A stretch of DNA of 64,000 nucleotides from Blastocystis hominis (Eukaryota > Sar > Bigyra > Opalinata > Blastocystidae): positions 340,001 to 404,000 of the forward strand of contig NW_013171865.1 of NCBI RefSeq assembly GCF_000151665.1, read 5' to 3'. Shown here in pieces: positions 9,803 to 61,400 of the stretch (within the stretch, counting starts at the first letter, position 1; each line of letters begins with the position of its first letter). Both the position numbers and the translations under genes were made by a program. The notes beneath the pieces were generated by a model. It did no database searches. It was not told the origin of the DNA and worked only from the letters and a program-made list of their open reading frames with translations.

Positions 9803-12800
9803 ATGAAAAGGGGATGGCAAAGTGAAAGGTCAGAGAACGAGTTGAAACAAGAAGAGGAAGTGATAAACAATGTAGGAACGAGTAAAATCGAGTCTCATTT
9901 TGCAGCTCATGGAAGAAATTAGAAACACACCCGATTCTGTGGATGCTTTTATGTTAAGAACTGTTCCTGTTGAATACAACACAGAGTTAGAAAAGCAATG
10001 TAGAAATGGCGATTTGAGTTATGTTGCTCCTATTTACTTCGAATCATCTGTAGTTTTCCGTCGAGAAGTACATTTCCTTTCCTCCTGCAGTTCAGGAAAT
10101 ACAAACACAGTCAGGCTATATTCCAGAGTTTAATCTGCTCTATGTTCTGGGTGTCAACGACATTTGGTTCTGGGTTCTGGGTTCAAACAAGCACTGGATA
10201 TGTTATAGAGAGTTATTAGATCGTGTCATAAAGATTTGCTATTCAAATTATCCAGGACTTGTTGTTGTGACCAAATCGCAAATTGTTCTTCTGGAGCTTC
10301 AAGTGGATCGTTTCTCTGTGGCTGTTCCGAGACAAGTTTACAGCGAACCAATCCGTGGAGAGTCCGTGACGGACCTTCAGTACTGCAATGGTCATATATA
10401 CGTTGTCTTTCAAGATGGAACCATTAGCGAGTTCTGTCCTTCTGTCAGACGAACTTTCTTCAGTTTTCCTCTCTCTTCCGTGATTCCTCGGTCCTCCTCT
10501 TCGCCTATCCGACTCATGCGATACGACGAAGCGAGCAACTACCTCTACACCCTTCTAGAGAATGAGAGAATCTGCGTCTATGCGGTGAACGCGGACTCGC
10601 TGACACTGTTGGACACCATCGAGAATATCACCGAAGTCGCTCAAACCCCGATCCAATGCGCGTCCGATTGGACTCTAATCGGTTTGGATTTCCTCCCTTA
10701 CGGACTCTGTCCATTCCCTGTTCTCGTCGCCACGGCACGCAATGGAACGCGGTTTTTCCTTTGTGTGAAAGACGGCAAGCTCCAGCGCTCCCTCCTCCGC
10801 CTCAGCTCGCAGAACGGACTCACAGTGAACTCGACGGCGATCGTTGGAAGCACCTTCGTGCAGACCACTGCTGCCAATCAAGTCTTCTTTACCACGCGAT
10901 GTGCCAGTCCGCATCCCGTGTATCTCGAGGTCTCGGAGCTGCTGAAGGAGAAGTTCCCCGCGATCGAGCGTGTCTATTCCCTTCCGGAGCTCCAGATGCA
11001 TCGGAAATGCTCGCGCCATCGATGCGAACTTCGCTTTTGGTAGGCTTCAAGCAGCTTTTGCGATTTTAGCGGAATCCACAATCTCTTGTTTGACGACGTC
11101 GAGACGAAAATTCTGTTCGTGGGCTACGGGTTCGCAGCGATCGTGACCAAAGCGATCTATCACACGGCGATTCGCAACATCGCCGATGTCTCGCGAGCCT
11201 CGCCCATCGAAATCTTTGAGTCCTTCTTGGTTTCGGAGCTTCCAGATCCCTCGGAGCTTTCGGAACTTTCAAAGCTTTCAAAGATGGAATTGGACGCGAT
11301 TGCGTCGATCTCCTTCCCCTACACGCTCATCCAGCAAACCTTCGCGCGTCTGCTCGATCCGATTTGGAACCATCCTCTCTTTACGCTCTCCTCCTCGCTC
11401 ACCTTCTCTCAATCCATCATCGAGCGTCTTGCGAGCATTCTCCGCCAGTTCAAGCGCTTCTACGAATCACATTTCGATCTCAACTCCTCCGACGACTCCG
11501 CGTTGAATCCGCAGATTGGGAACGACTACCGTTTGCTCTGCAGACTGCAGGATATTTGCGGCCTCTCCCTTCACGTTCACCTCCACTCCTTCCATTCCCT
11601 CTAGTTGCTCGCTCTGGACTGCAGACCGCTCGTTCTCGTCGACAAGCGCTTGCTCTCGGTGCTGGCCAACGCCTCTCTGAAGATGTGCGTGCTGCGCCCC
11701 AACGCGCTTCGCTGCCTCGAGAAGACGGTTCTCCAACTGATCGAGCGCTTCTACATCCCGCGATGCTCCGACTACGACCAGTTCGAGAAGATCTGCGAGT
11801 CGCTTCAGCAGGAATGCGGAGACTTCTTCAGCCCCTGCGAGAAGCTCTTCATGGAGGCGCAGTTCTTGGTCCGAACGCCCGACGTCTCCGAGAACCAGCT
11901 CTCCTTCGCGGCCGACAAGCTGCAGCGGATCTTCGGGCTGACGCCCTTCTCCAAAGTGGATCGATTCGTTCGTCGTATCGAGCGGATTCTGCTTCCCGAC
12001 AGGCCCGAGCTCGCGATCCAAGTCTTCCTTCAAGGCGCGTCGCACATCCAGCTCGCGAACTGCAGCGACGGACCCAACTGCTCGAAGCTGCGCATGCTGG
12101 ACAACCAGAAAGCGGCTCGCGCTTCGCTCATCGCCGCGGCGCGCGCAGTCGTCGAGAGCACCATCGACGCGCCGTCTGCAATTTCGAATCTCCAGAAGTT
12201 CTGCGATCTGGCGTCGCAATCGTCGGTGTTTGATCTATTCAATTGGCTGATGGCGACGCATCGCGAAGATCTGCTGATTGAGCTGAAGCACAAAGAGCTC
12301 GAGCAGTTCTTGCTGCATCAGGATTTCTTCACATTGCAGCGACTCTACGTGCATCGAAAAGAGATCCGAAAGGCGATCCAGCTTCTCTACGAAGTCGCTG
12401 TGCTGTCGCATCACATCAATATCCAGCTAAACGAGCGAATCGAAGCGCTCAATCTCTGCATTCAGCTATTCGACCAGGTCGATTTGAGCTTGGAGCCGTT
12501 TTCGTACCCCGAATTAACGCTCCCCAACTTACGCCATCACTTGAATTACCTTCTGATTTGCTACGAAACCGGTCTGGACGCCGTCGATCTATCGCACTGC
12601 GACGAGCTGCTTCGGTCGTGCCGCGAGCGCCATCTCTACGATCTCGTTCTCTATCTGCTGCAGATTCAAAACGACAACGACGAGAAAGCCGTCAAGGACG
12701 CGTGGAACGACTTCATGAACGCGTGTTTCGACACGTACGCCATCGAGGACAGCGTGGCGCGCATTATTGAAACGATGGTTCGCCTCGCAGATGAAACGAT

Positions 12801-13119
12801 GATCCCTCTGGCGCTGATTTTAGAACGCGTGCTGATCGCTGGCTATCAAACTCCCGAGCGGATTGTGCGCGAGAGTGGATGCAGCGTGAGCTTCGTGACT
12901 CACCAGCTGCTCGAGCTTCTGCGGCTCCGTCTAGAAGAGGATTGGCGTTTGAAGGTCGCAGCGCTGACGTTGAAGTAGAAGCGAAGGATTGGATGCATGA
13001 TAGAGTTTATTCGCCGCCGATGCGATCGCTGTTGCAGGTCATCGAGGGCGATTTGGTCGCCATTCTGGAACACCAAGACGAAGCCAAGCAGCTCATCGAA
13101 CAGATCCACTCGTTGCTTT
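9803..13119 (+). CDS. NUP155: Nucleoporin Nup155/Nup170
   Basis: Large inner-ring scaffold nucleoporin: N-terminal beta-propeller, C-terminal alpha-solenoid. Start ATG 9803 (MKRGWQSERSENELKQEEE); a 34-nt intron leads into LMEEIRNTPDSVDAF. Further introns: GTCGAGAAG..GCAG near 10060-10090, 30 nt at 11041-11070, 30 nt ending 11604, and 32 nt ending 12978. Recognisable family segments are NLLYVLGVNDIWFW, the C-terminal LQRLYVHRKEIRKAIQLL with INIQLNERIEALNLC, and the closing VIEGDLVAILEHQDE. The reading frame has no stop before the TGTTTGTT at 13124; the next in-frame TGA (13131) overlaps the octamer. A T in codon position 1 at 13119 lies 5 nt before it, so the stop is probably UAA made by polyadenylation, giving C-terminus ..IEQIHSLL. 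Confidence 0.86.
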
Positions 13120-13123
13120 ATTC

Positions 13124-13131
13124 TGTTTGTT
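13124..13131 (+). terminator. TGTTTGTT poly(A) element of Nup155
   Basis: Lies inside the open frame of Nup155 and forms the left arm of an inverted repeat with 13134-13141. Confidence 0.75.
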
Positions 13132-13133
13132 GA

Positions 13134-13141
13134 AACAAACA
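13134..13141 (-). terminator. TGTTTGTT poly(A) element (minus) of the 13285-14585 gene
   Basis: AACAAACA on the plus strand, about 144 nt downstream of the TAA of the minus-strand gene; separated by 2 nt from the plus-strand octamer of Nup155. Confidence 0.6.
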
Positions 13142-13200
13142 CAAGCGAACATTCAGGATTTTGTTATGTCTTTGTTTTGATTTTCATTTATTTTGTGCTT

Positions 13201-13284: not shown

Positions 13285-14585
13285 TTACTTCATATCAAGA
13301 ATCATGTTGATCATCGGCAGCACATCATCATTCAGCAACGCGTTCGATTTCAACTTGTTCGCCTCCATAAAGCTCACCACATTATTCAGATTATACGCCC
13401 ATCGTCTCTTCTGCACCTGCAGCGGAGCCGCTTTAAAGTGCGCCTTTTCCATGAACACCATATCGTAAATCTCCCGACACTCCACCACGTTATGCGGGAA
13501 CGGCGCCAGGCACGTCTTCGCGTTCTCCGGCGTGCACAGCACCGATTTCTGCAGATTTGACTGGGCATCGCGCAGGATCGGCTCCAGACGGTTATACACG
13601 GGGAGCTTCTGCAGAAGGACATCGATGGCGCTCAGCACGCGGCGGATGGACGCCACGACGAGGGTTGGGTTCTTTACCGCGTAGCGATAATCGCAGATCG
13701 TCCAGGTGCCGTCGTTGAGGAAGGTCTGCGATTCATGGTAGGATGGGTGAGTACGCTCATAAGGCGGTTCAGATCTCTCTGGAACTGCTGCTCTGCCGCT
13801 TCGGAGAGGGTGGGAATCAGGAACTTGATTGCTGACTTGAGGACATCGATCATGAAAAAAGAGTTCGTGGAGGGGATTAAAACGATGTTAAGAAGCAGTC
13901 CGTGATCGATGCAGTTCACTACGAGCTGGGAAGCCAACACACAGGCCTGGCAATAATCGCGAAGGTTATCGTCCTGATCAATGCCAAACTGGCTCAGACT
14001 ATTCAATAGCTCGAGAGTAAGGCTGCAGTATGACAAGAGACAAGAGAACAATACCTATGTTCGGGATTTTTCAGATAGACCTCGCGCAAATCGGATATGA
14101 TAGCGTTCATGATATCCTTTGTCTGCGTGGTTCCGTACTTAAGATCCTTCCACTTAGCAAACTCATTCTAAAATACCTCCCGTATCGCTATCCAGTCATT
14201 GGCGATCGTTTCCAGCACCTGACCCACGCTGTATGCGTTGCTCATAAATGCATCCTTCTCCAGACTGCTTTGAGGAACTAAATAAGTTCCCAGGTAGGGT
14301 TTCAGGTTAGCTAGTGTTTGCTCCGTTGAGTTCGTGATAAAAGATTGGTCGCGTGGAAGGTTGTACAGCGCGGCGAGGAGGTCATCTTGGTAACTACGAA
14401 ATGTGTTGCTCAGATCCATCAACGTAACATTCATAGTATCGTTGATGATGCTCGCGAGACATCTCCCATGGTAGAGAAGGGCATACACCAGAGCAACAAA
14501 TTGCTGTTCCTCCTCTTTGACTGTGGGCGGAATAATAGGTATCTACACGATATCTTTCCATCCGAAGCCCTACAGAATATGGCAT
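13285..14585 (-). CDS. Unrecognised helical protein of about 400 residues
   Basis: I do not recognise the family. Start ATG 14585 (MPYS) is joined through a 31-nt GT..AG intron to IPIIPPTVKEEEQQFVALVY. Further introns: a segment ending TAG near 14170 with an unclear donor (in-frame length), 32 nt between PEHS and LTLELLNSLSQFG, and 29 nt before TFLNDGTWTICDYRY. The last exon runs from about 13656 to TAA at 13285 and ends NMILDMK. The protein is leucine-rich and mostly helical, without signal peptide, transmembrane segment, Cys/His cluster or nucleotide-binding motif. It is convergent with Nup155 and co-oriented with VPS45. A subunit of a trafficking or actin-regulatory complex would fit its texture, but nothing in the sequence proves that. 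Confidence 0.7.
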
Positions 14586-16900: not shown

Positions 16901-18814
16901 ATGTTGGGTTTGAGTACACGACCCGTTTCTCTTCTCCAAGGGGGAACACGACTTCCACGGTTGATTGGAGTTCGTTTTTTGGGGAAACGGCGTGTGATTG
17001 TGGATGACTCTCTAAAGGATCTGACAAGTCGACCAACGAACTATGTTGAATTGAACCCATATAATAAAATACGAGTTATGTCCAAACGGTCCTATCTTCC
17101 GGTTTCACACATCTCAAAGGCGCTCTGTACAAGGGACAATGGTGATTTCCTATTGAAAGTACAGTTTCTTGCCTATTGTGAACGGTAGGATGAAGAGGGG
17201 CGTGTGCACCGGTTTTCTGACGAACGAGATATTATTATTCCCTACTCTATTGCGGAACCGTATTTGACTCGATGCAAGAAGCAGTGTCGCTGCGTAGAAA
17301 TCGATCCTGAAGTAGCTCCATCAACTCCTTCAAACATGGGCAACGTATTCTTGATTCTGGATGATCAGTAGCAGATGGTGAAGCGCCGGTCTGTCTTTAG
17401 TGTGATAGGTGAAATGGATCATGGGAAAACGACTTTGTTGGATACGTTTCTCCATACTTCCTATCAAAAGCAAGAATTTGGAGGAACCACGCAGATTATC
17501 CGAGCCAATGACATGCAGATCCCCTACAAAACAGCCTCAGGCGAGACTGCATTGCATCCCTGTACCTTTCTCGACACGCCTGGCCAATCTTGCTTTTCGT
17601 TTGTTTGTTTTCCTTGCGATTCAATCACGGATAGATTCGAGAAAATGGCAGCATTCTCTCGGACCTGGCGCTCTACATCGTGTCTTTGTACGAGGGACCT
17701 TCCGAGGAAGCTCGCTCCATCTTTCAGCAGATGAAAGAGAACAAAACGCCCGTGATCGTGGTGTTTACGAAGAGCGATTTGGTTTCGAATCTGCGGAGAG
17801 AGTCCGTGAAGCAGTCGATTCTCGAATTGGCTGCTTCGTTTCACGTTCCCATTTGTTTGTTCACACATCGACGTTGATTTGTAGTGGATATGCTCACTGT
17901 GAGCTGCGTTACCCACGAGGGAATCGAGCAGCTGCAGCAGCGATTGGTCGAATTGGGTCAACGGCAGCAGCCCAGCGTGCCCATCGATTGTCCTGCGGAA
18001 GCCACGGTGTTGGACAGTCTGGTGATTCCTTCGCAGGGCATTGTGTTCCGCGCGCTGGTCCAGCAGGGCTGTCTGTCGCTTCGGAACAACTTCATTTGTG
18101 GCATGTACACTGGACGAGTGCGAAATCTGATCGATCTGCACAGCAATCCGGTGCAGAAAGCGCTGCCCGGAATGGTGGTGAACGTTCTGGGCGCTCGAAA
18201 ATTGCCCGCGTTCTTGCGGAAGAAGCCGCAGCTGCTGCCTGCGGGCGATACGCTGTTTGTTCGAACACCTGATGAAATCAAAGCGATTTGGGATCAGCGA
18301 TTGCTGGAGTTTTCCTTCCGAGCCAGCGCAGGAAGAGGATTTGAATGAATCTGAGGGATTTAAGGAATCATTCGAATCATTCGAATCCAATGAGTCAATT
18401 CAAGGAAATGAAATGAATAAATTGGGTCAAAAGGACCAACAACCCTATCCAATGGAGTTTGAAAACGCGGAAGATCGTCCGGTTTTATCCAATCGGCGTG
18501 TGGAAATCATCGATGGAGAGGAGTATGTGGAGGTCAAATCGCAATCTGTGATCGCTGTGGCGGATAATGCGAACAGCATGGCGATTCTGCTTGACCAGCT
18601 GAATGCAAAGCCGAATATGAACATTGTTCGAACGCGTGTGGGTCAGATTACCGATAAGGAAATTCGGCTCTGCAGAGAATCCGACGTGAAGTTGGTGTCG
18701 TTCAATGTGGCTTTGCCTCCTAAGATCGTGCTGAGCGAGAAGAAGTTTATCTATTCGCGGTTGATGAACGAGCTGATTGATAAGTTGAACGTGGCATTTG
18801 GAAAGAAGGAGTAA
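16901..18814 (+). CDS. Mitochondrial-type translation initiation factor IF-2, divergent GTPase motifs
   Basis: GTPase that would bring initiator tRNA to the small ribosomal subunit in the mitochondrion-related organelle. Start ATG 16901: MLGLSTRPVSLLQGGTRL is Arg/Ser-rich without acids, as in an organelle presequence. Introns: 30 nt (17161-17190), 27 nt ending 17370, 32 nt (17603-17634), 30 nt (17855-17884). The GTPase has GEMDHGKTT (usually GHVDHGKT), GGTTQIIRA, FLDTPGQ (usually DTPGH) and FTKSD (usually NKxD). Domain II follows (GIVFRALVQQGCLSLRNNFI). Between 18250 and 18340 the frame changes once more, so one further short intron is likely; its borders are ambiguous. C-terminal IF-2 domains (GIVRTRVGQITDKEI-like) run to TAA 18812. 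Assignment is firm; GTPase competence is uncertain. Confidence 0.85.
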
Positions 18815-32733: not shown

Positions 32734-33709
32734 ATGGAGAGCTCGTTGTACGAGGAATATTCGAAACTGCTTCTAGAGCAGGGAGTCAAGTTCCAAGCGT
32801 TCGATTTGGAGTCGATTACCGAGAAGGACGTGCTTCTCATTATTGATTGTCAGAACGACTTCTTCCCGGAGGGAACGGTGGAGGACGGAGGTCGCTTCGG
32901 CGTGGATGTACTCTCCTCTCCATGTTTGCCTAAACTGTAGGATGGAGAGAAGATCGTTCCCTCTGTGAATCAGCTGATCGATGTGTTTGCGAAGAAGGGC
33001 GGTGTGATTGCTGCCACGAAAGATTTCCATTCCATTCACCATTGCTCCTTTACACCGAACGGAGGCGCGTTCCCTCCGCACTGCATTCAAGGAGCCAAAG
33101 GATCCGAGGTCCGTTCGGAAAAGGAACTTCATTTCTAGTTCCACAAGGAAATCGGTGCGAAACTGGCGGAGGCAAAGGCGCAGGGTGCCACCGTCCTCGT
33201 GGGATACAAGGGCATTGAAGATGCGCATGATTGCTTCAGTGCGTATCCCTATACCTCTGCGACCGGCAAGGAGCGATTTGGAGCCGATTTCGAGACGAAC
33301 GAGTGGTACAATTGTTTCGTTCTCGAGTCTTCTCGCGAGAACGAGACGATGGACTGCCACCCCGACGTGATGGCGATCTACAAGAAGAGATCGCTGATGG
33401 TAGGAAATGATGATGGTGTCGGTAAAGCGAAGAATGTGATCGGAGAACGCTTGTCTGAGCAGAGTCGTTTCATTGTGTGCGGCTTGGCATTCGATTACTG
33501 CGTGATCGACAGCGCGATCAATGTTCGGTAGGAGCGCCTGGAACGAGTGAAATGCAGCGAAAACACGCATCTTCCGGTGTTCATCGCCCATCCAGCGACG
33601 CGTGCGTCGCACATTCCGGGTGTGGGCGCATTCGGCAGCGGCTTTTTGAACAACCCGAAGGAACTGAGCGAGAAGCTCCAGAACTACGCGATAGCGATGA
33701 TTGATTTGT
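32734..33709 (+). CDS. PNC1: Nicotinamidase (PNC1-like) with inserted segment
   Basis: Hydrolyses nicotinamide to nicotinate in NAD+ salvage. Start ATG 32734 (MESSLYEEYSKLLLEQG). Motifs: LLIIDCQNDFFPEGT (catalytic Asp), KDFHSIHHCSF (metal-binding Asp and two His), FPPHCIQGAKGS (HCxxG), and CGLAFDYCVIDSA with the catalytic Cys. It closes with HPATRASHIPGVGAF. Introns lie near 32905-32940, 33105-33139 and 33526-33536. The segment between HCIQG and the Cys (about 100 residues, with DFETNEWYNCFVLESS) is longer than in small bacterial enzymes, as in yeast Pnc1. There is no stop before the octamer at 33714; T33709 in codon position 1 lies 5 nt upstream and would become UAA after polyadenylation, giving C-terminus ..IAMIDL. 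Confidence 0.87.
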
Positions 33710-33713
33710 TTTC

Positions 33714-33721
33714 TGTTTGTT
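33714..33721 (+). terminator. TGTTTGTT poly(A) element of nicotinamidase
   Basis: Exact octamer within the open frame; the next encoded in-frame stop is about 40 nt further on (33760). Confidence 0.75.
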
Positions 33722-44577: not shown

Positions 44578-44612
44578 TGTTTGTTTGTTTGTTTGTTGAT
44601 TGTTTGTTTGTT
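44578..44612 (+). terminator. Cluster of six overlapping TGTTTGTT elements after ARPC2
   Basis: Exact octamers start at 44578, 44582, 44586, 44590, 44601 and 44605, made from (TGTT)n repeats 12 nt after the ARPC2 stop. Confidence 0.8.
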
Positions 44613-51297: not shown

Positions 51298-51305
51298 TGT
51301 TTGTT
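51298..51305 (+). terminator. TGTTTGTT poly(A) element, plus strand (membrane protein gene)
   Basis: Exact octamer about 67 nt after the TAG at 51229; lies over the antisense 3' region of TRM1. Confidence 0.65.
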
Positions 51306-51319
51306 CGCTTCCCTTTTCC

Positions 51320-51327
51320 AACAAACA
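51320..51327 (-). terminator. TGTTTGTT poly(A) element (minus) of TRM1
   Basis: Exact minus-strand octamer inside the open frame of TRM1, 47 nt before the first encoded in-frame stop (51273). Confidence 0.75.
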
Positions 51328-51331
51328 CTCC

Positions 51332-53113
51332 AAAGCTCATTATCCATCTTCGATCGCTTCAAACTGCCGCGCGCCTTCGGACCCCAATTCGGCTCCGGAT
51401 TCCCAGGGAATCGCGCGAACTCGTACTCCTTCTTCATCTCCTCCAGCACCGTGAAGTCATACCTTCCACTCGCCGGCTCCGTCAGCCACTTCTTCACGAA
51501 CCCGTCCGGCAGCGCCTCCAGCCACTCCTTCTTCGCTTCTTTCTGGAACTGCTGGAAGTACGCGCGGAACATGTCGAACACCACCGCTCCCGGCGCGTCC
51601 GTCTTCAACGCCAGCGGATCGCAGTGGCTCTGCGAGGTCTGGTAGCCGGCCCGACGCAGCGCCGAGGCGATCTCGATGTACTTCGGCGCGGTCATTTTCA
51701 GCGTCGATGTCATGCCATGGAAGCTGTAATAGAAGGGAATCGGCAGCTCTTCTTTCATCTACGCTTCACTCCGCTCTCCCTCGCCCACAGCCGTCAGCAA
51801 GCCCAGCAGAATCGGATGGGTGGAGCAGAGGTACGAGCTCAATGCCAGCAATCCTTCGTCTTTCTCCACGTACAGCTTCGTCAGTCGGTCAATCGCCGCG
51901 TCCATCACTTGCGGATCGCACAGCGCGCCGCTGAACACCGGACCGCCCAGCTACACGTCAGGTCCTGGCGAGATTCCGACGCGATAGACGCCGTTGCAGA
52001 GCGGACAGTGCGAATCGACCTCGCAATTCGGCGGGTGGAACTTGCCTGGCTTCTCTTCTACCCTTCAAACCTCCCTGTGTGGGCACTGTGCGAACGGCCT
52101 AACGGCTGCAGCTGGTAGTGGTGGCAGTCGTTGCAGTAGTAGAGCAATGCCGAGTTCGAAGCGCACTGCTTAATCGCGGTTTTGGAGTCGTGACTGATTC
52201 GAAATCGCTCAAAACACATACATTCGAACGAAGCAACGCACATAGAAGTCGATTTGGAAGGCACCCAGCACTTCGATGGAGCGTCCGTACTTGGCTGCGT
52301 TCATCATGATGGTGTACAGCACGATTCGAACCGCCAGTTCGTGGCAAAAGGGGGTTTTCGGACAATTGGCGCCGTATTTCGTAAACACCACTTCCGGATG
52401 GTTGCCACACAGCACAGTGAGGTCGGTGCTGGTCACACAGAGCAAACCTCCGTCGCAGAGAGACTGCACGGCACCGTCCAGGAAGATACTGCACGATCCG
52501 TAGGGATCGAGATCGATCACATCGAAGCGGTTGTAGGAAGGGCTTCGATTCTGGTACATCACCATCGTGGCATCCCTTTGATTGAAGAGATCCGAAAGAA
52601 ATACGCTTGGTTCGGAACTACGCGGTCGGAGGTGATTTTGTTGTAAGCGAGATTATCCTTCATGCTTTCAACAGCTGCATCAGCGATATCGTTAATAATA
52701 ATGCGGCGAATATTCGGAATCTCCTTCCAGTAACGAATACTTCGCAGACCGGAGGCAGCCAATGCTTCCAGGATGTAGAGACCATCTTCTGCGAGATAGG
52801 GCTTTCCTTCTGCCTCGGCTACCTTTTTACGCTCTGCGATGATTCCTTCGTATCGCTTTGGCTTTTCTTGCTTAAGAGTTTCCATCTCTCGCTTTCGCAT
52901 TTCTCCAAACAAGGTAATCATCAAGATAGACAAATCTCGGTTTTTGACCTGAACCTAATTCATCATCGATCTATAAAAAGGAGTGCCTTGTTGTAGAACA
53001 CATCATTATTCTCAGGGAAGAGAATGGTTGCACTTCCCTCAGTAATGAACTTATATCCTTTCGAAAAATCCTTTGCAGCTATGACTTAATCACCTCTCTC
53101 AAACCCAACCCAT
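51332..53113 (-). CDS. TRM1: tRNA (guanine26-N2)-dimethyltransferase TRM1
   Basis: SAM-dependent enzyme making m2,2G26 in tRNA. Start ATG 53113; after ATGG a 31-nt intron gives MAAKDFSKGYKFITEGSA, then TILFPENNDVFYNK. The next junction, to VQVKNRDLSILMITLFGE, needs a 32-nt intron starting GC (52950-52981). Conserved segments: LEALAASGLRSIRYWKEI, INDIADAAVESMKDNL, RFDVIDLDPYGSCSIFLD (catalytic DPYG), LLCVTSTDLTVLCG and CHELAVRIVLYTI; a Cys/His region follows (YYCNDCHHYQ, HCPLCNGVYRVG), then LGGPVFSGALCD and PFYYSFHGMTSTLKMTAPK. The frame runs to TGA-less 51273, but the octamer at 51320-51327 suggests that the mature C-terminus is ..SKMDNEL, with T51332 (codon position 1) completed to UAA. Confidence 0.9.
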
Positions 53114-53246: not shown

Positions 53247-53254
53247 AACAAACA
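53247..53254 (-). terminator. TGTTTGTT poly(A) element (minus) of TBC1D23
   Basis: Exact octamer in the open frame of TBC1D23, upstream of the encoded in-frame stop at 53218. Confidence 0.75.
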
Positions 53255-53258
53255 CCCG

Positions 53259-56054
53259 ATAAAAAGGTTCCAATTCGATTCATTATTTCATTCACTACAA
53301 ATATCGCGTAATCCACTTGAAGATAGATCTCTCCATTTGATCCATATCGAATGTGTATTATTTGTGGGGATGTAGCTGTGGTGTCTCCATTTTCTTCACT
53401 AACGAGGATGTTAACGTTCTGAACCTCCTGCAGAGGGATCACGCCTTTCACCACATACGACTCGCAGTGATTCCAATCGATTTCTTTCGCCTCGTCCACG
53501 CTACAGGATCCAAACCTTTCCAGCGACTCCACGATTCGGGAAACGATCTCCATTTCTCGCTGCTCGTCCACATCCAAACTGTCTTCTTCGGCATTCATTC
53601 CTTCTTCTTCTTCTTCTTCTTCTTCTAAGGAAATCGATTGTTGCGATGGAAGGATGTCTGTTGATTCCATGAATGGAGTTTTTGTTTCGTTGGTGTTTGA
53701 GGGGTCGGCGGAGTTTGGATCGTCGTTTTCACTCGTCGTTTCGGTGGTGATTTCTGATGAATCGGCGGGATTGGTCTCTTGGGGAGATTCAAGAGATTCA
53801 TTTTCGGTTTTCTCTCTTTCATGTTCTTCGCTTGCTGTGCCGTCACTTGTAGTATTTTCTTGTTCGTTTTCATCCTCGCAGCTTGTTTTGTCCTCATCCG
53901 TCCTTTCCTTTTTGATATCAGTGACACATTCATTTTCATTTTCGCATTCACATTCACATTTATCCTCAATCTCCTCTTCTTCTTCCTCCTCTTCCTCCTC
54001 CTCTTCTTCTTCTTCCTGCTCCTCTTGTTCTTCTTCCTCTTCCTCCTCTTCCTCCTCCTCTTGTTCTTCCTCCTCTTGTTCCTCCTGTTCCTCCTCTTCA
54101 ATCCTTTCCTCCACCTTCTGACTCTCTTCTGTTTTGCCCACTTCAACCACCGCAGCGGTCACCAACAACATATTCTTCCTCGTCAGAATCATCAAATACG
54201 TTCCCTTCAAAGCATCCGAACGACCCAAACTTTCATCCGTTTTCACCGCCAATTGAAGCGCCTCGATCTCCGCAAAATCCTGGCCGATTTCGCTCTCCGA
54301 AAGAACCCTCACCAAATGGGTATAAAGCAGCGAATTCACGATCGTTATCAGCTGCGCAGCGATCTGCGTACCGATCGAGCTGCGGTCGATTTCGGCCATC
54401 ATTCCGTCCAGACAGTTGTGAATCGCTTCAAAATACTTCTTCGAATGCGAGTCTTCAATGAACGACGCGTCTTCCTTCCGCGACGGAGCGACCAACACCA
54501 CCTTTTCCTCTTCAGCACTGGCACTCTTGTAATAATCGCTCGATGACGTGTTGGTATCGCTGCGCTGCTTCCAGCTTCGCCACCAAGTCCAGCCACCCAA
54601 CAACCCTCGAAGCGGTTTGATCGAGTTTTTGGGAGTCTGGTAGTCGTTCGATAGCAGAATGTCCAGCAGTTTCGGGAAGTCGGTCTTCGAGTCTTTCTCA
54701 TTCATCGCAATCGACACGAACGATCGCTGCGCCTTTTGGAAAACAAGCGAAACCAGACTGGCTTCGTTTTCAGAGTCGGAGAGAATGATGATTGGCTAGG
54801 AGTAAACTCAAACACGCTTTGCTACGTCCTGGTACGCAGAGCACATCTGCTGATACACATTTCCCTCGGTGTTTCCTGAACTGTAGGGCACGTGGATGTA
54901 ATGGATCCGCGTCGTCTGATCGGCGGAGAGAGTCGAGTAGAGAGTGGCTTCCACACAGCCATCCACTACACTGACAAAATCGTTCCGCGCAGCGACTTCT
55001 TTTCGAATATCCAGCACGATATAGGTCATACAGTTGGCTGTGTGGGAAGAAGGAAGCAGTTTCTTGTAGCGACTTTCCGTTGTGATGACTGGACCAATGA
55101 TCTGGAAATGAGAAACATCGCAAATCAAAGCAGTACATTCGAAAACGGTATAACCAGAGCAAATGGAACGCTTTGACATAGACAGGAAAAACAAGTATTC
55201 TAAGTCACGGAGAAAGTAAAGGACAGTACGACATAGGCCTGAGAGATCGAAGGAAGCGTGTTGATCATCATGGAAATGGAGGTTAGTGAAATCATCGTCA
55301 CGTTTTTCATTGCATCTCGCAGATAGGACTACATGGAGAATCGAAAAGGAATGAAAACATCGAATGAAGGAGATAGTGGAGAGGAGGAATGCAAGGAAAG
55401 AGTGTGAACTAACCAGAGCAATATCCACAACACAGAACGCTGCTGGTATCCTTGTAGAGGCTCGAGAAGAGCCCACAGCTGAGCAGAGTCAAGATAACTC
55501 GCAGGATCCACGACAAGAGTGCAGATTGTGTCTTCCCACCCATTGTACGCTGCATCGAGCTTGAGAGCCAGGGACGGATCGAAATAGAGAAGCAGCAGAC
55601 GGAAGAAATCACCGGAAAACTCAGCATTCTGAAGACACGCACTGTTCTTATCACTTATTGTGCATATCAAACGATCCTGCAGGAGCAGACGTAACGCAAA
55701 GGCATCTTTTGGAGTTTCGATAACATCCACAAAGGAATAGAGAATTCGTAATTGGGCGCTGTTGAGCATGTCGTTCTTCGTCGGTGTGAAGGCCAACTTG
55801 AGAAGTGTATCTTTCCCATCACAGCTGTGCTCTCCAGAAAGCGAGGATGATATGAGCGAATCAACAAGGTCATTTTCCGGAACGGGCGGTACTGTGATAT
55901 CTGGCTGCAGCTTAAACCAGTTCGTCCAGCGGGATTTGATGGCTTCAACCGACGTTCGCGCCGTTAGATTATCTGTAGAGGACGAAGTCGTTGAACTATC
56001 TAAGGAAGCCGTCGATGTAGGAAACGGCACTTGAACTTGAACCAGAGCATCCAT
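53259..56054 (-). CDS. TBC1D23: TBC1D23-like Golgi trafficking protein (TBC, rhodanese-like, C-terminal PH-like)
   Basis: In animals TBC1D23 bridges endosome-derived vesicles to golgins at the TGN; its TBC and rhodanese domains lack catalytic residues. Start ATG 56054 (MDALVQVQVPFPTSTASLD). The TBC part includes FFRLLLLYFDPSLALKLD, matching human FRLLIQYHEPELCSYLD. After introns: SYLRDAMKNVTMISLTSISM, a rhodanese-like region (MTYIVLDIRKEVAARND ... ASLVSLVFQKAQRSFVSIAM), a 30-nt intron before PIIILSDSENEA, then GTYLMILTRKNMLLV of the C-terminal domain. That domain is split by a roughly 150-residue acidic insert (about 53650-54110) before ESYVVKGVIPLQEVQNVNIL and VVNEIMNRIGTFL. The frame runs past the octamer at 53247; T53259 in codon position 1 is 5 nt before it, predicting UAA by polyadenylation. 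Confidence 0.78.
53650..54110 (-). repeat. Glu-rich low-complexity insert in TBC1D23
   Basis: CTC/TTC-rich on the plus strand; encodes long Glu runs and Thr/Ser/Asn/Glu-rich sequence on the coding strand, interrupting the C-terminal domain. Confidence 0.85.
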
Positions 56055-58451: not shown

Positions 58452-61400
58452 CTGTTTGTTTAAAATCCTGTCCTTCCGAATACAAATATCATGGTCCACC
58501 TTGCAATTGCTATCCGTGCAGCTTTTCACATGCCTTTCCACAATCCTCACAAACAGTCGGCATAGTTTGCAACTCCCCTTCTCACAAACCGAGCTGTGCT
58601 GCACCATGGTCTTCATCAGCGAGCAGTAGGGCACCGCACACATCTCGCTATCGCACACAAAGCAATGCGTTAACGCCTGCAGCTGCGAGTCTCCCGGATT
58701 CCCCTGGAAGGTCTGCATGGAACGTCTTTCCCAGCCCTACGTCCATAAAGCAAACGTTTTCATCGCGCGCAAAGCCAGAAACAGCGATCGGCGTGAGCTC
58801 GTGCTCGTGGCTGTGCTTCTCGCGGCAGCTGTCGCACATGTCGTAATCGGGACACTTGTGGCAATGCCAGCGCGTGCCGGTGGTGATTTCGCGCATGCAG
58901 CGATTGCAGCTGTGGCCGTACTTGGGAATATCCGGGTTGAAACAGTGATAAAAGGCCATCATGGTGCTGTAGGAGGCGCGACGAAGCTACGATGAAGACA
59001 AAAGCGAGAGGAAACCTGATCGAACTCGTAGTGGTTTCCTTGGCACACGCTCAAAAAGGTCTGGCGATTCTCGAAAGAGCGAGTAATCATCGACTCGTTC
59101 CAGTCATGCTCGTCAAACCGAGTGGCTGGGATGCGCGTCGCGCTGGTTTGCAGCTCGCGAGAGAGATTGGAGAGACAGGCGAGACAGCAGAAGGGAGCCA
59201 TGAGAATGTTCTTCTCGGATCGATGCTTCACGGGAGAGGAAATCTTCTCTGGAAGCTTGAAGTGGACTTCATCGTCGATATACCGACCGCACCAATGACA
59301 CTGATGCTGCAGTTTGACCACCAAGAGACGATCTTTGTAGTCCTATGGCTCAGAAAAGCTTTTAGCAAACGACTTTGAGCGACTCGTACATCTTTGCGAA
59401 TAAAACGCCCTTCTTTGCTGCTCGTTTTCTCGTGGACGTAGAGGTCTATGATTGATAAAACATAGTCAAAACAATGAGATACATCCGATTCCACTTCATC
59501 CGTTTGCTCCAAGAGCGGCTTCACTTTCTGGACGTTCAGCAGCAAATTGCACTTCTCTTCGGAGTCCTGCACCCAGTGATCATCGCTGAATTGAGGCACT
59601 GCCAGCAACGCCACGTCATCCTTACTGCGATTGTAGTTTCCCTGCAAATACTCGTTCACCAGGTTGGAAACCTCCGTAACGATTCCCTGCTTGTGCGCAT
59701 TGGCCAGCATCTCGTGATACCAGTCTCCCAATCGCTTTTCATTCGGCGTTTGCTGCTCGAGAGGATGCGAGAAGCTAGAAACATTAGAGAGAACAATGGG
59801 GAGAGTACATGATGTAATCGTCTCCTTTCTTGGGAGGACACACCCAGATTAATGCCGATTTGAATCCGTGTTGCTTGACATAGGCGAAATAGCCGAGAAC
59901 CATTTCTTGGTAGATGGGTTTTCGATAGCGAGAGGGCGACAAGTAGCGAATACTATCCAGATACGAAATGTACGCGGTCTTTTCGTTGGGAGAGCCTTTT
60001 TCGGGACATTCGTAGACGTACATGATGAATAAAAGAACGTCCATGGAATCGATCTTCTGTGTGTGAGCGTGGATTATACAGAGAATGATACCTGGAACAG
60101 ACAAATGCATTTCACCCAATACGGCCATTTGGATATGAAAGAGCAGCCTTGGAAGTACTTTTGGAAGTTTTCCTTCATGGTCCACGTTTTTTTCTAGCAT
60201 CGTAATGGAGCAAACGAACGAAGTACCGAGTTTACAAGAACTCGAACGGATAATCCTTGGGGTACTTCGATTCGATCCAAGGTTGTGTTGAGGGATTCCG
60301 CCTCCGCTTTCTGCATGTCGATGACCAACTTCATGATTCGTTGCTCGATGTATCGACTCAGATCCGTCTCAAGGAAGTCTACAATCAATCAGAGTGCCCA
60401 ATCGCAAATGAAACTTTCTGCTCGAGGCAGCACGGCCGGAACGTTGACCCGAAGCCTCCATTCCGGATGGCTCTGCATACAAAAGGGACAAACAAACAAG
60501 CAGTGCTTGTCTCGCTCAGCAATTTTACTATTGAACAGTACGCAGATCGTGTGGAACTTCTTCTTGCACTGAAAGCAAGTCACCCAATCTTCGTCATACC
60601 GCGTCGTGTTCTTTTTTAACTGTAAATCCTTCTTCAGAACCACGCCATCTTCGCATTGAATCGTCTCATCGAGTTTCTTGTAACACTCTTCACACCAGAT
60701 GTGTTGTAATGTGGCGTGCAGATAGTATTTCTGATCCAGTTTAATCTTGCTATGGCAGGGACCAATGCAATGAAAGCATTGCGAGCGAAGACTGAAATGG
60801 CCACCTTCGCAGAGAGCACAAATCTGGCTTTGTTTCTGCGTGTATTCATCCTTTGCCCATTTATCGTTCCTCTCATGCTTTTCTAATTGGGAAAGAAACG
60901 AGCTCTGGATATTCAGAACATACTCCTGAATCGAAGGGTCCTACGATTCAACCCCAAACCCTTCCACGACCTTATTGAACGTCAAGCAATTCGTGAACAT
61001 CAGCATCACATCCTCTTTGAACGCGTCCAGACTGTGGTAGAACTTCCGCTTAACGCGATATTCAATGGTCTTCAGGCACATCGGATGCTCGATCACTTGG
61101 TAATAATCCTCACATCCCGGCCGTTTCACATCCACAGGAAGCTCAAACAGATGGCTTACACTACTTTCACACGTGATAACATCATCTACTCTGCTTTCTG
61201 CAGGTCCGCAAAAAGCGTTGGGATCGCGCGCTGCATATCCAAACTCCACCAAGGCGACTGGGCTTCGCGAATCAAGCGAACGCGTCGGTTCATCTTCCTG
61301 AGAGCAAACAAATCGAGTTTACTTCGCTGTTTGACATTAACTCAAAGTAGGAAGGAGTGAGATGGCGTCGATTCCTGTTGAGTGCCTTCTGCTGCTCGTG

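Follow-up and report, generated by a model that had tools for sequence, protein, structure and literature searches.

A Nup155-like gene and three other genes in a 64,000-nt stretch of the Blastocystis hominis genome (hereafter the window, whose coordinates are used throughout) very probably end in UAA codons that are completed by polyadenylation, with cleavage predicted to fall just upstream of the exact octamer TGTTTGTT. The poly(A)-made stop is itself a further example of a mechanism known from Blastocystis. The small new twist is the palindrome to which the octamer of the Nup155-like gene belongs; as half of that palindrome, the octamer may also serve the gene facing it.

A Nup155-like gene and its 3' end

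The penultimate large exon of the gene (11605 to 12974, plus strand) encodes part of an alpha-solenoid, as judged from Pfam and Foldseek. This 457-aa exon matches the Pfam family PF03177 (Nucleoporin_C) only weakly (E = 9.7e-5; a score of 21.7 bits, below the curated cut-off of 25.9). A Foldseek search of the PDB with a low-confidence structure model of the exon (pLDDT 60.9) gave eight matches at E ≤ 0.001, all eight of which are Nup170 or nuclear pore entries, the best being Nup170 (E = 2.4e-6). Searches for relatives in other subtypes, meant to show whether the poly(A)-made stop of the Nup155-like gene is conserved, returned none from a protein search (residues 400 to 972 of the 987-aa query; 7,990 candidates scored), none from viral contigs, and nothing useful from sequence searches of the PDB. 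Contig C2 of the same genome carries a stronger Nucleoporin_C match (E = 5.3e-14); among the matches listed by that search, the window gene does not appear. Because the Pfam family takes in Nup133 as well, the C2 match and the window gene need not compete, and we keep the latter as Nup155/Nup170-like, its modeled alpha-solenoid appearing to be of that type.

We infer a 29-nt GT-AG intron at 12975 to 13003 (plus strand), which would bring the last exon into the frame of T13119. This frame was chosen despite alternative GT-AG choices around the site because it is the only one that scores clearly as coding over the last 60 nt (+12.1, versus +0.8 and -4.9 in the other two frames). The last coding stretch, 13004 to 13119, ends in ...IEQIHSLL plus a T and has no encoded stop; joined across the intron, the C-terminus reads ...LTLKVYSPPMRSLLQVIEGDLVAILEHQDEAKQLIEQIHSLL.

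Given this intron, the frame stays open up to the exact octamer at 13124 to 13131 (plus strand), the putative poly(A) element of the gene, and no in-frame encoded stop precedes the predicted cleavage point. T13119, in codon position 1 of a TAT codon and the predicted last transcribed base, sits exactly 5 nt before the octamer, which places the octamer 4 bases downstream of the predicted cleavage point; these coordinates had been given exactly in an earlier, sequence-only reading of the window. We propose that cleavage of the pre-mRNA falls after U13119, which leaves four bases between the site and UGUUUGUU, and that the poly(A) tail would supply the rest of the UAA codon. Base 13120 is an A, so cleavage one base later, after A13120, would also yield UAA. 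With the codon completed by the tail, the mRNA would end with its stop codon and have no 3' UTR. Both the cleavage and the choice of this site over a downstream one are predictions. An in-frame encoded TGA at 13131 to 13133 overlaps the last base of the octamer and would be used only with downstream cleavage; reading through T13119 to this codon gives YSVC*, and since it lies only four codons on, nearly the same protein would be made by either route. A one-mismatch octamer, TCTTTGTT, at 13169 to 13176 (plus strand) is a possible alternative site downstream.

The same geometry at other gene ends

The sequence-only reading had also pointed to the same geometry (an open frame with a T in codon position 1 that precedes an exact octamer by exactly 5 nt) in three other genes, at 33709 (plus strand), 51332 (minus strand), and 53259 (minus strand), and all three were recovered. 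At 33709 to 33721, the geometry stands at the end of a nicotinamidase/isochorismatase-like gene (PF00857, E = 2.6e-9), with an encoded stop 17 codons later. At 51320 to 51332, it ends a Trm1 gene (PF02005, E = 2.1e-65), with an encoded stop 19 codons later; a plus-strand octamer at 51298 to 51305 faces this gene end. At 53247 to 53259, it ends a Glu-rich frame that is open for 512 codons, with an encoded stop 13 codons later and only an NCBIfam match far below the cut-off. The same tail-completed UAA would be formed in each of these genes.

Octamers in the sense orientation also occur inside genes that continue past them: at 17602, 17854, and 18254 (plus strand) in a translation-GTPase gene and at 60498 (minus strand) in a gene with a PHD finger (E = 1.9e-4, slightly short of the cut-off). 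Those at 17854, 18254, and 60498 lack the full geometry. The octamer at 17602 is a counter-example, having the full geometry (17597 to 17609, plus strand) while straddling a 5' splice site that we placed by eye; the GTP_EFTU domain runs on past it, with profile positions 4 to 83 before and 88 to 147 after. As this gene continues, the geometry predicts a poly(A)-made stop but does not decide it.

Octamer abundance and the role of chance

Exact octamers are abundant, with 31 in the window versus a mean of 2.4 in shuffles and 7,304 in the 18.7-Mb genome, or one per 2,561 bases; a count of 6,732 was published for ST7 (Gentekaki et al. 2017). T occupies position -5, the fifth base before the octamer, at 18 of the 31 window octamers. 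Genome-wide, T is found at -5 before 4,298 of 7,304 octamers (58.8%), at -6 before 3,329 (45.6%), and at -4 before 3,039 (41.6%), with TTTG microsatellites inflating the counts at all three positions. One run of overlapping octamers (TGTT repeats) lies in the window at 44578 to 44612 (plus strand), right after an encoded TGA, and such microsatellites inflate octamer counts as well.

The chance of the geometry arising at random had been put at 1 in 12 per case, which was too generous. Since these cleavage sites generally favor T at -5, the chance is nearer 0.58/3 = 0.19, or about 1 in 5. At that value, four cases out of four have a P of about 0.0014, compared with 4.8e-5 at 1/12. Eight of the 31 window octamers can be placed in a sense coding frame without a prior encoded stop (the four proposed gene ends together with 17602, 17854, 18254, and 60498), the remaining 23 lying after an encoded stop or not being placeable. 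The probability that at least four of these eight have the geometry is 0.05 at 0.19 and 0.0026 at 1/12; for the actual five of eight, 17602 included, it is 0.009 and 0.00018, respectively. All of these window P values are rough, as the cases were chosen after the fact. For all four cases, UAA formation by polyadenylation is the most plausible reading, and their spacing is the published one; the odds attached to it had been overstated.

A palindromic double octamer

A second octamer, on the opposite strand at 13134 to 13141, forms with the one at 13124 to 13131 the palindrome TGTTTGTT-GA-AACAAACA, a feature on which the sequence-only reading had made no comment. Palindromes of this kind with a gap of 0 to 4 bases number 52 in the genome, versus 3.56 expected under strand independence and 0 for a reversed control pattern; with gaps of 0 to 30, there are 81 versus 3 in the control. 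Gaps of 5 to 30 account for 29 sites versus about 18.5 under independence, with microsatellite runs counted several times, so that the excess of palindromes sits at gaps of 0 to 4. In the examined sequence, AACAAACA with at most two mismatches follows 110 octamers at a rate of 3.4 per gap at gaps of 0 to 4 versus 1.07 at gaps of 10 to 79. When up to two mismatches were allowed across the genome, the counts were 373 versus 14 at gap 2, 249 versus 56 at gap 1, 218 versus 43 at gap 6, and 145 versus 78 at gap 12, so that the fall-off with gap is not clean, gap 6 being enriched as much as gap 1. The gap-6 enrichment is partly due to the four-base periodicity of the octamer, and several gap-6 places are in fact gap-2 sites (for example, C2:747479 and C38:388449).

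We analyzed 50 of the 52 palindromes counted in the genome, including that of the window. Removal of 4 microsatellite cases and 2 duplicates left 44 distinct elements with 88 ends. The palindromes do not form one repeat family, a possibility that we rejected because 44 of the 50 sites have unlike flanks after the microsatellites and duplicates are removed. Two pairs of palindromic junctions (L032/L060 and L038/L057) have near-identical flanks, which suggests duplication that included the gene ends.

Codon phase at palindromic and other octamers

If polyadenylation makes stop codons at -5, coding frames should be locked to that base, and at palindromic ends they are. With the coding frame called from bases -75 to -12 only, 31 of the 88 palindromic ends reach a score of at least 5, and A's added after base -5 make a stop in 20 of them; the other bases from -1 to -12 give a stop in 0 to 10 of the 31 (10 at -4 and at -8). 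The result is similar at scores of at least 3 (28 of 53 ends at -5; 1 to 13 at other distances) and at least 0 (35 of 69; 3 to 17). The T at -5 falls in codon positions 1, 2, and 3 at 21, 6, and 0 ends, respectively, at scores of at least 5 (n = 27; P = 2.9e-6 against one third), at 30, 11, and 3 ends at scores of at least 3, and at 36, 15, and 4 ends at scores of at least 0.

The phase signal is weaker at non-palindromic octamers. These contribute 98 ends, which are what remains of the 110 octamers in the examined sequence once palindromes, TGTT repeats, and one-sided ends are taken out. At scores of at least 0 (46 of the 98 ends), a stop is made at -5 in 15 of 46, with 3 to 12 at other distances, and the T lies in codon positions 1, 2, and 3 at 17, 4, and 8 ends (17 of 29 in position 1, P = 0.0045). 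Poly(A)-made stops are predicted at 20 of 31 palindromic versus 4 of 14 other ends at scores of at least 5 and at 28 of 53 versus 9 of 25 at scores of at least 3, these samples being too small and too differently drawn for a firm comparison. T at -5 is also somewhat commoner in palindromes (63 of 88 ends versus 56 of 98 others, P = 0.047).

The window and an adjacent 50 kb by themselves give 7 of 13 T-bearing non-palindromic ends in codon position 1 (P = 0.10). The distance scan of this 114-kb sample does not cleanly single out distance 5, and permuted octamers perform about equally. Of 19 cases at exact octamers, a stop is made in 6 at distance 5, in 7 at distance 4, and in 5 at distance 1; of 29 at permuted octamers, it is made in 6 at distance 5 and in 8 at distance 6. 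Octamers with one mismatch that lie close to coding frames in the same 114 kb (scores of at least 2) show no peak at distance 5, where 8 of 54 give a stop, compared with 5 to 9 at other distances. The 114-kb sample is too small to show the effect, and the larger palindrome sample was used for this reason. Judged by codon phase, the genome carries a mark of poly(A)-made stops at the distance reported from ESTs.

The base following the predicted cleavage point is biased as well. At this position, -4, G occurs most often (at 43 of 88 palindromic ends and 45 of 98 others) and A seldom (6 of 88 and 7 of 98), so that U^G looks like part of the cleavage site. The T at -5 and the G at -4 agree with the report of Li and Du (2014), in which the attachment base was U in transcripts and the next base was G in 35%.

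We also considered whether the last T of the octamer, which can complete a stop when followed by AA, GA, or AG, as at 13131, acts as a fail-safe linked to poly(A)-made stops. Such a link was not supported, either for ends with T at -5 (P = 0.66 for palindromic ends, 0.14 for others, and 0.08 for all) or for coding ends whose T lies in codon position 1 (P = 0.62, 0.23, and 0.68, respectively).

Putative two-way elements between facing genes

Coding-like frames with a score of at least 2 lie on both sides of 22 of the 44 distinct palindromes, on one side of 16, and on neither side of 6. T at -5 is present on both sides in 24 of the 50 palindromes, on one side in 21, and on neither in 5, and in 6 of the 44, the addition of A's after base -5 predicts a poly(A)-made stop on both sides. 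Among 60 coding-like ends, 24 have neither an encoded nor a made stop, many of the frame calls being uncertain. These palindromes look like two-way poly(A) elements that facing genes would share, in many cases with stops made by polyadenylation. We favor, with some reserve, the broader view that facing genes in Blastocystis commonly share one such element (TGTTTGTT, 0 to 4 bases, AACAAACA), on which the two mRNAs would end about 24 to 28 bp apart and at which encoded stops would most often be lost, sometimes in both genes at once.

At the window palindrome, the facing open frame (13285 to 13887, minus strand) ends in an encoded TAA that lies 139 nt before its would-be cleavage site, which would leave a 139-nt 3' UTR if the octamer at 13134 to 13141 were used, and the base at -5 on this side is G. 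Given the distance of the TAA and this G, use of the palindrome by the facing gene is only possible. At another palindrome (L037, plus-strand end), a frame with NSWGEYWGEEGW near its end, which by eye we take to be papain-like, contains an encoded TGA with its T at -5; polyadenylation there would turn UGA into UAA.

Alternative explanations for the Nup155-like gene end

The TGA at 13131 to 13133 could be the true stop of the Nup155-like gene, with cleavage downstream, for example, after 13164 as directed by TCTTTGTT. The codon is in frame after only four codons, and the one-mismatch octamer starts 36 bases beyond it, but we regard this explanation as unlikely given a perfect octamer at the standard distance upstream, a spacing that is the published norm, and the 13 to 19 codons of tail that the other three genes would gain. 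It is very unlikely that the T at -5 reflects a cleavage-site preference whose codon phase at these genes is accidental. Such a T does precede 58.8% of octamers whatever the frame, with G the commonest next base, and U is the attachment base reported from transcripts (Li and Du 2014); yet codon position 1 at gene ends is well above one third, and the mechanism has been documented from ESTs and RNA-seq in Blastocystis.

Scarcely credible is a plus-strand octamer that does not serve the Nup155-like gene at all, being a mere mirror half of the element of the facing gene or a chance hairpin. The palindromic form of the element would suit this, as would the gene-internal octamers that do not end genes; however, palindromes frequently have a T at -5 (63 of 88 ends), its phase is locked to the coding frames, and it is the facing side that has a G at -5.

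Implications and comparison with known systems

Completion of UAA by the poly(A) tail matters for annotation, as Blastocystis gene models err at the 3' end unless poly(A)-made stops are considered, and four likely cases occur in this window alone. A simple route to the loss of encoded stops is suggested by the palindrome: facing genes are squeezed onto a shared element that leaves hardly any space for either a stop or a 3' UTR. These gene ends also raise the questions of how translation terminates, and escapes nonstop decay, at a stop codon adjoining the poly(A) tail and of how gene-internal octamers are ignored.

The mechanism had been described as known in Blastocystis, and it is indeed published (Klimes et al. 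2014; Gentekaki et al. 2017). The fixed 5-nt spacing had been put down as worth recording; the same spacing, as four bases between site and motif, was already in print. In ST7, the cleavage site derived from ESTs lies four bases ahead of the motif, for which up to two substitutions were allowed, in 2,333 of 2,419 genes (Klimes et al. 2014, PMC4159000). Poly(A)-made stops are reported there for 372 ST7 genes, about 15%, and elsewhere for 1,693 ST1 genes, or 26% (Gentekaki et al. 2017). In an ST7 reporter, changing the motif and two upstream T's lowered expression 324-fold (PMC6395660). The cases described here are like these published ones in the octamer, the four-base spacing, and the U+AA outcome, though the passages on the published ones do not name the genes of the window. 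The palindromic pairing of the octamer seen here, and the convergent sharing proposed from it, are not mentioned in the main texts of Klimes et al. (2014) and Gentekaki et al. (2017) and were not found by our literature searches in Blastocystis.

Mitochondrial stops completed by polyadenylation in mammals, dinoflagellates, and Diplonema are alike in taking part of UAA from the tail (PMC4159000). They differ in being organellar. To our knowledge, they are not directed by a downstream GU octamer. Inverted repeats are also reported at poly(A) sites in yeast, where they are AT-rich or rich in A/T tracts (PMC6420913), whereas the palindromes described here have an exact GU octamer on each strand, 0 to 4 bases apart. 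A poly(A) region common to facing genes in Arabidopsis (PMC3032780) resembles the two-way element proposed here.
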